From Rhodospirillaceae bacterium SYSU D60007 (GTDB lineage Bacteria; Pseudomonadota; Alphaproteobacteria; Reyranellales; Reyranellaceae): a stretch of 64,000 bases of DNA. Below, in pieces: positions 45,314 to 49,158 of the stretch. The translations under genes were made by a program, and so were the position numbers. Location of the stretch: NCBI GenBank assembly GCA_003574685.1, contig QOCQ01000025.1, positions 1 to 64,000 on the forward strand. The letters run 5' to 3'. How positions within the stretch are numbered: position 1 is the first letter of the stretch; each line of letters opens with the position of its first letter. A model generated the notes under the pieces. It saw nothing but the letters and a program-made list of their open reading frames with translations. It did not search any database and was not told the DNA's origin.

Positions 45314-45351
45314 AAAAGTGGCCGGGGCGCGCCACGGTGGTGGCGCGCCCC
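45314..45351 (-). terminator. Hairpin terminator downstream of the selenoprotein gene
   Basis: GGGGCGCGCCAC and GTGGCGCGCCCC pair over 12 bases with a 4-base loop. On the minus strand the hairpin is followed by GGCCACTTTTG, a short T-run. It lies six bases beyond the GrdB-like stop codon. The stem resembles the arms of the large inverted repeat at 46312. Confidence 0.5.
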
Positions 45352-45356
45352 CAGCT

Positions 45357-46226
45357 TCATTTCACGCGCGGCTTCTGGCCGCGCTGGGCGCGGCGCGCAT
45401 CGCCGATGGCCAGCAGCCGCTCGCGGTCCTCGGGCCTCACGCGGTTGTAGCGCTCGCGCCAGTCCGGATCGTGTTTCCATTCGAAGGGTGCACGCACTGT
45501 CGTGCGCGGGCCGGTGGCGCTCTCCAGCAGGCGCAGCGCCAGGCCTACGATCGCTGCCTGCATGTCGCGCTGCCAGGGATGGCCGCACGGGTTACCCAGC
45601 GGGAAATCCGTGAAGACGAAGCGCGCAACGCCGCAATGCTCGACGATGTCGCGGGCCGAGCCGATGATGACCGTCGGCAAACCATTTTCCTCGAGATGTC
45701 GGGCGACCAGACTCACGGTCTGGTGACAGACGGGTCAAAGCGCTGTCAGCAGCGCCGCGTCGGCTCCGTCCGCGCGCAGGCGGCGCAACAGCTCGGGCGC
45801 ATCCTGCTCCATTGTCTTGCGGTGGCTGTAGTCGGTGGGCGCGTGATGGAAGCGCGGGCAGAGCGTCCCGAACAACCCCTCGGCACAGAGCCGCCGCGCC
45901 GCGTCGATCGGCAGGAACGTCTCGCGGTCATCGGTGTGGGTGGCCTCGCGGTCCCACGCGACATCGGTATCGTAGGTGAGGGGCGGCGCCGCGACCTCGC
46001 CCGACCACACCTGCTTGCGTCCGCGCGCGTCGCGGTTGGAGCGGTCGGGCGGCCCTGCCGTGGTGATCAGTCCGATGCGCGCATCACGCAGCTTCTTGCC
46101 CAGCCGCGCAAACGGCACTTCGTCGAAATGCGCCCAGACGTAATCGCTGTCATAGCCCAGCGCGCGATAATAGCGCCGCGTACGCTCCATATAGCCAACG
46201 GGCTGGCCGGCGGAATTCTGCTCCAT
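45357..46226 (-). CDS. Predicted selenoprotein of the glycine/sarcosine/betaine reductase B (GrdB) family
   Basis: A 289-residue chain if the TGA at 45735-45737 is read as selenocysteine (U164). Both flanks are one protein: upstream YYRALGYDSDYVWAHFDEVP and GADAALLTAL, downstream PVCHQTVSLVARHLEENGLP and FPLGNPCGHPWQRDMQ. The joined text AL-U-PVCHQTV places U in a UxxC redox pair where relatives have Cys or Sec. A 7-bp hairpin with loop CGTGA begins 10 bases after the TGA, fitting bacterial SECIS rules. No restart codon with a ribosome site follows the TGA. The role may be a thiol/selenol reductase. A plain nonsense mutation is the alternative. Confidence 0.8.
45706..45724 (-). promoter_or_regulatory. 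Bacterial SECIS-like hairpin
   Basis: On the minus strand ACCAGAC pairs perfectly with GTCTGGT around the 5-base loop CGTGA. The loop starts 17 bases after the TGA and has G at its second position. These fit the published bacterial SECIS model (16-37 bases to the apical loop, G in the first two loop positions). Confidence 0.65.
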
Positions 46227-46311
46227 GATGCGCGTCCTCTCCTCAACTGGTGTAGCTAACCACGCACGCCGCCGACGAGCCATGCCGGCAGACGCAAGCC
46301 GGCATGCATGT

Positions 46312-46393
46312 CGCCGGGGGCGCGCCACTCCAGTGGCGCGTCATGGGCTCGCGTGGGCGGAAGACGCGCCACTGGAGTGGCGCGCCCCCGGCG
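46312..46393. repeat. 31-bp perfect inverted repeat (family E)
   Basis: The arms at 46312-46342 and 46363-46393 are perfect reverse complements, with a 20-base spacer. Each arm itself contains the small palindrome GCGCCACTCCAGTGGCGC. A further hairpin CATGCCGGC/GCCGGCATG lies just upstream at 46281. It separates the selenoprotein start from the split-barrel gene end. Confidence 0.85.
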
Positions 46394-46394
46394 C

Positions 46395-47025
46395 TCAATA
46401 CAGGTTGGTCTTGTAGTCGCGGTCGATGCCGCGCTGCATCAGGCCGGGGACGGCGACGGCGGCGCGCAGCAGTGTGGCCCCAAGCCCGCGTGTCCTGTTC
46501 AGCCGGACATGGGCAGCGAACATCGCGGCGGGATTGATGTCATGCGGCTGCGGTCGGGCCGGCCAGAGCCGCGCCCGCAGCAACGCGGCGCTGGTACGGA
46601 CAACAAGCTGCGGCTCCTCGATGCAGGTCGCGAGCAGCGGTGTCTTGCCGTTCACGGCGAAGCTCTGGCGCAGCGCCATATCGGCGGTAAGACGCGCCCT
46701 GCCCGTGAGGATCGCGACCTGCGGCGCACCGGGGATCAGCGCGGCGGCGGCGATGCGGGGCTGGACCAGGATGTTGCGGAAGCTGTCGGCGCGGCGGTTG
46801 CCCGGCCGCTCGGCATAGCAGGCGACGCCGTCCTGCAGGCGGATCAGCGCACCTGACGGATCGCCCTTGGGGCTGACATCGGCGCTCCCGTGACTGTCGA
46901 TCGTGGCCAGCGCCAGAAAGCGGCTCGCCGTGAGGAAGAGGGCGGCATCGCCCGGGATGGATCGCCGCCGGAGTCCGGCCGATGCACGCCTCCAGCGCGG
47001 CCACATCATTGATCGTCGTTCCCAT
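46395..47025 (-). pseudogene. Damaged FMN-binding split-barrel protein (pyridoxamine 5'-phosphate oxidase-like)
   Basis: The main frame carries FLTASRFLALATIDSHGSAD and VSPKGDPSGALIRLQDG, then CYAERPGNRRADSFRNILVQ, typical of MSMEG_1061-like flavin split-barrel proteins. The expected N-terminus (MGTTINDVAALEACIGRTPA) is in another frame, joined near 46965. The residues that should link them are also short. A small deletion with a frameshift explains both. A shorter functional start inside the main frame cannot be ruled out. Confidence 0.6.
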
Positions 47026-47087
47026 CCCGCCCCGATACCGCAATTGCGAGTGACTCGCAACCTGCCGGGGCGGGCGCGCCAGCAGCG

Positions 47088-47504
47088 TCAGGCTTTGCCG
47101 CAACCGGCCACGGCGACGGCGCGGATCTCGACGGATAACTCGGGAAGCGCGAGCTGCGTTACGCCCACCGCGGTCCACGACGGATACCGGTCGGGAAAGA
47201 ACTCGTCCTTCACCCGCGCGAAGGCCCGCATTTCGCCGCGCAGATCGGTATGAAACGTCGTCAGCTCGACGACGTCCGCCAGGCTCGCGCCCGCCGCCTC
47301 AAGGACCGATTGCAGGGCCTGAAAGGCAAGCCGCGCCTGCGCTTCCATGCCCTTTCCTGCAGTCATGGTGGCGTCGATTCCGACTTGGCCGGAAACCCAG
47401 ATGGTATCTCCCACACGCGTCGCCTGCGAAAAGTGAAGGCGGTCGTACATCTTCTCGGTGCCGGGCGGGTTAATGGATTGCCGGCGCAGGCTCTCGGAGC
47501 TCAT
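47088..47504 (-). CDS. RidA-family protein
   Basis: A 138-residue Rid protein with RVGDTIWVSGQVGID, AFQALQSVLEAAGASLADVV and the late PSWTAVGVTQLALPELSVEI. The Arg of the canonical RidA active site (xRxxV) is replaced by the SWTAVGV segment, so it probably belongs to a Rid subfamily other than true RidA. It lies 15 bases downstream of the dioxygenase gene and is probably co-transcribed with it. Confidence 0.82.
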   Translation of the reverse strand: MSSESLRRQSINPPGTEKMYDRLHFSQATRVGDTIWVSGQVGIDATMTAGKGMEAQARLAFQALQSVLEAAGASLADVVELTTFHTDLRGEMRAFARVKDEFFPDRYPSWTAVGVTQLALPELSVEIRAVAVAGCGKA

Positions 47505-47519
47505 GGCGTCATTCTCCCG

Positions 47520-48344
47520 TTACACGAGCTGGCGGAAAACTGGCGAACGGTAAGGATCGCCGTCCTTCAGCGCCGCCAATTCCTTGCCAAAGAGAAGGCC
47601 GTTGCGGGTGAAACGCGAATCCGGCAGCGAGCGCCAGGTCGCGTCATCGCCAAAGAAGCGCAGCACAAGCGTATGGCGCTCGGGGAAATCCGCATCGACC
47701 GGCGCGCCGCCGTGCAGCGAACCGGGATGCAGCACCACCACATCGCCGGGCTCCGTCGCCCACGAGAGAATGTCCCAGGCATCGGGATCGGCCTTGCGCT
47801 CGGCTTCGATGTCCGGAAGCCGGGGCAAGGCATCGCCGCCATGCAGGGGCTGAGTCGGATCGTTGGGATCGCGGAAGGTGGTGCCGTCGTAGCGTGTGCC
47901 GCGGTGCGAGCCGCGAACGATCTCCAGCGCATTCTGCTTCGGGACGGATTCGAAGCTGATCCAGGCATTGCCCCAATGCATGCCGTTCCACGGAAGGTAG
48001 GACGTGTCCTGGTGCCAGAGCGTGCGTGCACCGCATCCGCCCGCCTTGAGGAACACTTCCTCGGCGAAATACCAGACGTGCTGCGAGCCCCAGAGATCGG
48101 CGAACAACCGGCCAAAGGGCAGCGAAGACACCAGGTCGTCCAGCCGCGCCTTCGCAGCCGGATTGGCGTTGTCGACATGCGACTGCTGCGCGGTGCCCTT
48201 GTACATCCGGGAGGCGTGAAGGCCGGGGTTCTCGATGGCCCAGTCGAAGGCCGCCCGGCATTGCGCCAACTGCGTCTCGTTCAGGCAGCCTTTGATGAGG
48301 ACGGCTCCGTCCTCCAGGAACGCTTTCCGTACCGGGTCCTGCAT
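47520..48344 (-). CDS. Phytanoyl-CoA dioxygenase (PhyH)-like Fe(II)/2-oxoglutarate enzyme
   Basis: A 274-residue enzyme. The HxD pair is H111/D113 in TLWHQDTSYLPW; the distal His is in VVLHPGSLHGG (206 or 211), and Arg in PERHTLVLRF anchors 2-oxoglutarate. PhyH-type enzymes hydroxylate diverse small molecules. The gene heads a unit with RidA and is divergent from a TetR regulator, which probably controls it. Confidence 0.88.
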   Translation of the reverse strand: MQDPVRKAFLEDGAVLIKGCLNETQLAQCRAAFDWAIENPGLHASRMYKGTAQQSHVDNANPAAKARLDDLVSSLPFGRLFADLWGSQHVWYFAEEVFLKAGGCGARTLWHQDTSYLPWNGMHWGNAWISFESVPKQNALEIVRGSHRGTRYDGTTFRDPNDPTQPLHGGDALPRLPDIEAERKADPDAWDILSWATEPGDVVVLHPGSLHGGAPVDADFPERHTLVLRFFGDDATWRSLPDSRFTRNGLLFGKELAALKDGDPYRSPVFRQLV

Positions 48345-48379
48345 GGGCGCCTTCTCCCTGATCGCGTGACGGATGGGAC

Positions 48380-48447
48380 AATAGCGGGTCGCTCGATTTA
48401 ACGCAACACTTGTTATTATAATTGATGCAGGCGGCGAACCCGCTATT
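48380..48447. promoter_or_regulatory. Inverted repeat pair in the PhyH/TetR divergent spacer
   Basis: AATAGCGGGT (48380-48389) and ACCCGCTATT (48438-48447) are exact reverse complements 48 bases apart. Each lies close to one of the two divergent start codons. They could be paired half-sites for the TetR regulator or border a looped repressor complex. The spacer is A+T-rich compared with its surroundings. Confidence 0.5.
48417..48422 (+). promoter_or_regulatory. Candidate -10 box of the tetR-like gene
   Basis: TATAAT is an exact match to the sigma-70 -10 consensus, 35 bases before the tetR-like ATG. No clean -35 is visible at 16-18 bases upstream. Confidence 0.4.
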
Positions 48448-48456
48448 TTCATTGCC

Positions 48457-49158
48457 ATGACCCGCGATCACGACCCCTCGACGAATGCCGGCCGCCACGC
48501 GGCCGACAGTGAAGCCGAACCGGTGGTCCGCGGACGGGGTCGGCCCGTGGGCGACCGCGAGGCGAAGCGCGCCGGGTTGCTGAAGGCGGCAATCTCGGTG
48601 ATCGCGCAGGAGGGCTTTGCCGGGGCCTCGCTGCGCAAGGTGGCGCAGCGCGCGGGATGCACGACGGGCGCGGTGACCTATTACTTCGCGAACAAGGAGG
48701 CGATGGTCATCGCCGTCGCCGAAAGCCTGTTCGACCAGTTCGACGCCCAGCTCGGCAGGGGCCAGGACCGGATCGACGTCAGGGCCGGCTTCCAGCGCTG
48801 GCTGGACTGGACGAAGGCCGACGATCCTGACCCGTGGCTGGCGGTGCTTCAGTTGCTGGCCCATGCGCGCCACGAGCCGGCATTCGCCGCCGTCTATCAG
48901 CGGCGCTACGCGCAGTATCGCGAGAAGCTGGCGGCGATACTGGCGCGGGGGCAGGGCCAGGGCCTGATCCGCGGCGACATCCCTGCCGACCTGCTCGCCG
49001 ACCAGCTCAGTGCGATGGCCGATGGCTGGATGATGCTGCTGCCGATCGAACCTGAAAGGTTCAGGCCGGCCCGCATCCGGGCCCTGCTGGACGCAACCGT
49101 CGCCATGATCTCGCCCCCCTCGATGCGCACCCGACCGCGCCGAACAAGCGGCCGTTAA
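48457..49158 (+). CDS. TetR-family transcriptional regulator (BetI-like)
   Basis: A 233-residue regulator. The helix-turn-helix spans about residues 38-82 (LLKAAISVIAQEGFAGASLR then KVAQRAGCTTGAVTYYFANK). The ligand domain that follows contains WLDWTKADDPDPWLAVLQLL. The GRGRP-like N-terminal arm (VRGRGRPVGDREAK) may contact DNA minor groove. It is divergent from the PhyH-like gene and probably represses it and itself. Confidence 0.9.
   Translation: MTRDHDPSTNAGRHAADSEAEPVVRGRGRPVGDREAKRAGLLKAAISVIAQEGFAGASLRKVAQRAGCTTGAVTYYFANKEAMVIAVAESLFDQFDAQLGRGQDRIDVRAGFQRWLDWTKADDPDPWLAVLQLLAHARHEPAFAAVYQRRYAQYREKLAAILARGQGQGLIRGDIPADLLADQLSAMADGWMMLLPIEPERFRPARIRALLDATVAMISPPSMRTRPRRTSGR

Follow-up and report, generated by a model that had tools for sequence, protein, structure and literature searches.

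Glycine reductase and D-proline reductase are the described systems closest to the gene reported here. In both, a pyruvoyl subunit activates the substrate, and D-proline reduction requires PrdA. Ocean surveys have listed 'PrdB' selenoproteins since 2005 (PMC1088965, PMC2398784). In the available text of these surveys, PrdB-type selenoproteins rank among the commonest of the surface ocean: 'proline reductase PrdB', with 42 sequences, came third in abundance among the known selenoprotein families of the Sargasso Sea (PMC1088965), and the GOS data held 235 Sec and 110 Cys PrdB members, assigned to pfam07355 and carrying UxxC (PMC2398784). A 2006 table, in its accessible part, also places 'proline reductase' in Anaeromyxobacter and Geobacter (PMC1794560). 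No title listed in searches of an open-access library names the UPVC clade reported below, and a description may exist elsewhere.

The window (the whole stretch of DNA analyzed, 64,000 nt) contains a gene that is, as judged from its sequence and that of its relatives, a well-supported selenoprotein gene and one more member of a widespread clade within the GrdB/PrdB superfamily. The points of interest are what this clade does and whether it may help to maintain the Sec trait.

The gene and its in-frame UGA codon

The features of the locus are as follows.

45357..46226, minus strand: predicted selenoprotein gene of the orphan (UPVC) clade of the GrdB/PrdB superfamily, from translation with TGA as U, a PF07355 match of 27 bits (cut-off 22) and its clade in the tree
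45735..45737, minus strand: in-frame TGA, the predicted Sec164 codon, with TGA in 133 of 149 matching places among homologues
45726..45737, minus strand: predicted UxxC redox motif Sec164-Pro-Val-Cys167, with columns 164-169 invariant in two alignments
46236..46244, minus strand: possible ribosome-binding site GAGGAGAGG, purine-rich, 9 nt 5' of the ATG, read from the sequence
45706..45724, minus strand: candidate bSECIS hairpin ACCAGAC-CGUGA-GUCUGGU, 7 bp, 5-nt loop, 17 nt from TGA to loop, with seven pairs kept in 95 of 112 Sec genes and both-sided changes at three pairs

The gene runs from an ATG at 46226 to a TGA stop at 45357-45359, giving 290 codons including the stop and a product of 289 residues with Sec at 164. 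Codon 164 and the terminal stop are the only in-frame TGA codons in the translation, and the peptide across codon 164 reads ALLTAL-U-PVCHQTVSLVARHLEENGLPTV. An earlier sequence-only reading had given the same coordinates, and its description of two same-frame pieces split by a single TGA at 45735-45737 and joined as TAL-U-PVCHQTV agrees with our translation; the strand, unstated there, is minus. Under the standard code, the gene splits into ORFs of 197 and 119 aa, as expected if the TGA were an ordinary stop in a pseudogene, a sequencing error or a boundary between two short proteins. Against this explanation stands the constraint on either half of the gene. The GC3 of the two pieces was 0.80 and 0.82, a gene-like codon bias on either side of the TGA. 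In comparisons with seven of seven chosen relatives, position 3 was the least conserved codon position on either side of the TGA, which is the pattern expected from one continuous protein.

Homologues were collected from 388 related genomes, 112 of which gave matches at E 0.001 (weak ones included), and from a scan of named genomes, of which the best 80 loci of a longer list were used. Codon 164 was TGA in 133 of the 149 matching places, TGC in 10, TGT in 4 and within ambiguous sequence in 2; these places include the window's own gene and some loci counted twice. Once duplicates were removed, 126 distinct related genes remained, 112 with TGA and 14 with a Cys codon at position 164. The placement of TGA at codon 164 was checked for the fetched loci, and the other rows from the genome search are genes with an in-frame TGA. 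Homologues with Cys or Sec at position 164, which the sequence-only reading had proposed to look for, are thus at hand. The same reading had allowed for a miscalled TGA; since the codon recurs in 112 distinct genes, it is no sequencing error of this window. The spread of these TGA genes over several phyla also argues against an ordinary stop.

With Sec written as C, two alignments, one of 25 and one of 55 chosen rows, showed no variation in columns 164-169 (Sec/Cys-P-V-C-H-Q), and 32 columns were invariant over the 55 rows. Cys rows were scattered among Sec rows in a 107-row tree, in which well-supported branches force at least five changes of the Cys label. Three of the named loci (L101, L106 and L109) come from Reyranella, and Bradyrhizobium pachyrhizi (L105) has the Cys form. 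Sec and Cys forms in related bacteria allow a direct comparison of the two. The genome of the window organism also holds a second TGA-containing paralogue, 53% identical (G000:C12:262616-263419, L050). A third match in this genome was counted by the genome search, with coordinates outside the matches listed.

The hairpin and the selenocysteine machinery

Bacterial SECIS elements have a loop of 3-9 nt, a stem of 4-16 bp, a G in the first two loop positions, a UGA-to-loop distance of 16-37 nt and an MFE of -7.5 kcal/mol or lower, according to the available text of a 2026 review (PMC13188914). The hairpin past codon 164 falls within all of these limits, with a 5-nt loop, a 7-bp stem, G at loop position 2, a distance of 17 nt and -11.2 kcal/mol. 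Its stem begins at base 14 counted from the T of the TGA, that is, 10 bases past the TGA. The sequence-only reading had noted a 7-bp hairpin with a G in its loop at this place as fitting the bacterial SECIS model, and both these values and the retention of the stem among Sec genes bear this out. The folding energy was unremarkable alone, being matched by 21 of 200 shuffles over 36 nt and by 35 of 200 over 40 nt, so the case for the hairpin is evolutionary and not energetic.

All seven pairs were intact in 95 of the 112 Sec genes, against a mean of 3.05 and a maximum of 10 in a simulation that resampled synonymous codons 500 times from the pooled usage of these genes. None of the 14 Cys genes kept all seven (simulated mean 0.07); they averaged 4.29 pairs against 4.11 simulated, no better than simulation. 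AGT occupied the +25 to +27 codon in 106 of the 112 Sec genes and in none of the Cys genes; at other places in the 126 genes, it accounted for 106 of 1525 Ser codons. Across 67 distinct hairpins, 96.4% of cells paired, compared with 14-33% when the stem was slid by 1-3 bases. Compensatory changes on both sides were present at three of the seven pairs, in 22 cells. Neither these 22 cells nor the covariation score was reached by any of 500 shuffles, and three such pairs were reached by 39 of 500; because related sequences enter the shuffle and simulation tests repeatedly, these counts are not probabilities.

The genome of the window organism (5.34 Mb, 58 contigs, 99.81% complete) carries selC (tRNA-Sec, 75.6 bits), selB (449.7 bits) and selA (566.8 bits) side by side on contig C7, as found by model searches. 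A SelD-like ORF of 741 aa lies near these genes (L049 14804-17029, contig C7), read by eye. All four genes that the sequence-only reading had named for a check, selA, selB, selC and selD, are therefore accounted for, the first three by model and selD by eye from the ORF. By eye, the SelD-like domain of this ORF appears to be fused behind an N-terminal FAD/NAD-type oxidoreductase domain. A tRNA-Sec nested in selB has been reported in alphaproteobacteria, in the available text of one study (PMC8124441). Nesting was rejected for this genome, since the tRNA sits just past the selB stop.

SelA was found in 110 of 388 related genomes; within the window organism's family, 69 of 75 genomes have it. 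Outside this family, SelA is present in 10 of 11 genomes whose listed strong match is of the TGA form and in 1 of 5 whose listed strong match has no TGA; this comparison was counted by hand, with weaker and unlisted matches left out. SelA was not found at E 1e-60 in seven genomes with the TGA form, all drafts that are 60-100% complete, six in the family (G011, G033, G034, G047, G054, G069) and one outside it (G086).

An ordinary stop would have to account for a full stem that many TGA genes keep and all Cys genes lack, and for Sec machinery in the same genome; together with the recurrence of TGA in 112 of 126 distinct genes, this makes it extremely improbable. We predict with strong sequence support, and with little doubt, that UGA codon 164 is read as selenocysteine. 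SelB and tRNA-Sec would decode UGA164 as Sec, directed by the hairpin just downstream.

Formate dehydrogenase and a possible role of the clade in upkeep of the Sec trait

Reyranella is aerobic. The sequence-only reading had regarded Sec in an aerobic alphaproteobacterium, with a UPVC motif, as unusual compared with clostridial GrdB. Sec in alphaproteobacteria is not in itself unusual: in the available text of two reports, alphaproteobacterial selABC lies beside a Sec formate dehydrogenase (PMC1794560, PMC8124441), and a 2016 survey, as far as its text is available, found that 40.4% of Sec users are aerobic (PMC5029168). Selenoproteins are rarely retained in aerobic bacteria according to the accessible part of the 2026 review (PMC13188914). 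In its available text, the 2006 survey names formate dehydrogenase as the sole selenoprotein of alpha- and betaproteobacterial Sec users, and its table gives Alphaproteobacteria one selenoprotein family (PMC1794560).

No FdhA over the cut-off was found in a model search of the whole genome of the window organism, where the best match scored 125 bits against a cut-off of 814.2. There was also no formate dehydrogenase at C7:28000-40000. A remnant of a formate dehydrogenase operon was seen by eye at the sel locus (L049 13310-13845, G000 contig C7), consisting of a 5'-truncated fdhB-like gene beside crcB-like genes. Genes resembling fdhC and fdhE persist there with selA, selB and selC, and fdhA was not seen by eye at this locus. 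In the sister genome G001, a Sec-type fdhA lies next to the sel genes.

FdhA matches at E 1e-70 were present in 52 of the 75 family genomes, a few of them fragmentary, and TGA is present in those listed matches that extend to the Sec site. The other 23 genomes, many of which are drafts, had no FdhA match at this threshold, and all 23 had a SelA match (as fragments in G058 and G072). A homologue of the window gene with an in-frame TGA was present in 21 of these 23, among the matches listed, including the single-contig genomes G005 and G022. The two exceptions were G029, with the Cys form alone, and G037, with a listed match without TGA and one unlisted match. These 21 genomes, which have SelA and no FdhA match, provide a testable reason for keeping Sec, and they suggest that the UPVC clade may help keep the Sec machinery where formate dehydrogenase is absent.

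Family placement, likely chemistry and comparison with PrdB and GrdB

An AlphaFold model of the protein, with Cys in place of Sec, had a mean pLDDT of 94.6. No credible match to solved structures was found by sequence (best E 0.35), and a fold search gave 0 PDB matches at E 0.001 or better, with unlisted folds possible. A second fold comparison matched LacI-type and sugar-binding domains with Z up to 9.1, 34 chains having Z of at least 8; the match to the LacI core had Z 9.1 over 145 residues at 4.0 Å. In the model, this is a general likeness that would reflect a common alpha/beta arrangement and carries no functional inference.

The gene neighborhood was compared across loci. Neighbor clustering over 117 loci, several of them present twice, placed CoA-transferase family III in 31, along with other acyl-CoA enzymes, with names assigned by eye. 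An operon reading from these acyl-CoA neighbors was set aside, as the clustering counts had no background control. The direct same-strand neighbors were diverse in 43 loci chosen for comparison, where a simple GC3 rule served to call the genes. A conserved operon was not found: 10 of 11 window genes, including those for the PPOX flavoprotein, RidA-like, PhyH and TetR proteins, had no match in the compared loci, and one methyltransferase-like window gene about 6 kb away had 2 matches. With neighbors this variable among loci, nothing in the surroundings of the gene points to a substrate.

Several further observations concern the surroundings of the gene. A TPR protein of about 430 aa is encoded directly 3' of the gene in 4 of the 43 loci (L071, L078, L105 and L110) and is a possible partner. 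Upstream of the selenoprotein gene, at 46395-48458 and 48457-49158, the minus strand carries consecutive genes for PPOX-type flavoprotein, RidA-like and PhyH-like proteins, accompanied by a TetR-family gene in divergent orientation. A perfect 31-nt inverted repeat lies just upstream of the selenoprotein gene, with arms at 46312-46342 and 46363-46393 that are 20 nt apart, and a similar palindrome lies just downstream at 45324-45355. The repeat pattern has 6 matches in the window (3 places, both strands) against 0.24 expected, which makes it a candidate REP-like element or terminator.

The sequence-only reading had assigned the protein to the GrdB family. This stands at the level of Pfam, where PF07355 (GRDB) scores 27 bits against a gathering cut-off of 22 over profile positions 202-346 of 347, and fails at the level of the curated GrdB and PrdB models; a pyruvoyl-type partner was not found. 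The best NCBIfam match was PrdB (TIGR04483, E 1.1e-24), whose cut-off of 300 bits compares with a score of 87.2. The matching GrdB-type models TIGR01917, TIGR01918, NF040795 and NF040794 scored 38.8-44.2 bits against cut-offs of 65.45-800, all below threshold; for gly_red_sel_B, the score was 39.5 bits against 602.2. In the 107-row tree, built by a quick search with SH-aLRT supports and no bootstrap, 98 UPVC rows formed one clade (SH-aLRT 95), apart from PrdB (five rows, 94) and GrdB (98), with long branches. PrdA (TIGR04480) had 0 matches in the genome of the window organism, in a search that had no positive control for this model. PF09338 (Gly_reductase) had no match in this genome or in any of 29 other carriers, a selection from the 80 named loci, and matched in 5 of 5 PrdB-bearing records used as a positive control. 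It was likewise found in 0 of 2 plasmid records (Roseomonas, Haematobacter) that bear Cys members of the UPVC clade.

A true D-proline reductase PrdB, or a B subunit of glycine, betaine or sarcosine reductase in a Stickland-type pathway, would fit the PF07355 score, the best NCBIfam match and a Sec in the same column. The scores below the PrdB and gly_red_sel_B cut-offs, the separate clade with its different motif and the missing PrdA/PF09338 partner make such a subunit very unlikely. Taken together, the scores, the clade of its own and the lack of a PF09338 partner lead to the reading that the window protein is most likely an orphan GrdB/PrdB relative and, by these tests, not a proline or glycine reductase subunit. 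UPVC-clade proteins are likely to work without a pyruvoyl partner, a partner unrelated to PF09338 remaining conceivable.

We consider redox chemistry at the UxxC motif to be likely. A non-catalytic Sec/Cys pair, in a protein that senses redox state, acts as a redox carrier or binds a metal, selenium or a ligand, is in keeping with the lack of a conserved operon and, weakly, with the likeness to ligand-binding domains such as the LacI core. Sec is usually retained for catalysis, the 32 invariant columns are enzyme-like, and PrdB and GrdB, which have a related Sec site, are enzymes; we regard non-catalytic roles as unlikely. The orphan relative most likely acts as a stand-alone selenol/thiol reductase. 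Sec164 as the selenolate would attack an electrophilic or disulfide-like substrate, and Cys167 would resolve the adduct by forming a selenenylsulfide, which a thioredoxin-like donor would then reduce. These steps would proceed without the pyruvoyl subunit, and the conserved N-terminal region, longer than that of PrdB, may supply substrate binding. Overall, a Sec-inserted alpha/beta protein of the GrdB/PrdB superfamily that acts as a stand-alone selenol/thiol reductase without a pyruvoyl subunit is probably the best explanation of the locus.

More broadly, we see an even chance that the UPVC clade forms a separate kind of selenoenzyme, independent of a pyruvoyl group and catalyzing a reaction not yet described, which occurs in proteobacteria, myxobacteria, Acidimicrobiia, Chloroflexota and Binatia and has long passed as 'proline reductase', and that this clade is the main known reason for Sec machinery in some alphaproteobacteria without FdhA (the window organism and the single-contig genomes G005 and G022).

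Compared with PrdB (TIGR04483; Bacillota), the window protein is homologous over about 210-230 residues, with 25-32% identity to 22 PrdB-type records, and its Sec is in the same column of a common U-x-x-C-H in the PrdB of five Bacillota plasmid records. PrdB reads UGTCHR, whereas the window protein reads UPVCHQ, has a longer N-terminal region and C-terminal tail, and no PrdA/PF09338 partner was found for it. With GrdB/GrdF/GrdH (PF07355) it has in common the Pfam family and the Sec site. Four GrdB proteins read UGTCTRC, but the window protein reads UPVCHQT and so is missing the last Cys of UxxCxxC; it also lacks the N-terminal half of GrdB and a GrdE-type partner. Proteins named 'glycine/sarcosine/betaine reductase selenoprotein B family protein' in RefSeq, on Roseomonas and Haematobacter plasmids, are Cys members of the UPVC clade, and this name implies a function not shown for the clade. 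The 'PrdB' of the marine surveys, reported as proline reductase in their available text (PMC1088965, PMC2398784), has UxxC like the UPVC clade. Going by the survey tables and not by their sequences, these marine entries likely belong to the UPVC clade. If they do, the name in use for a common selenoenzyme is wrong.
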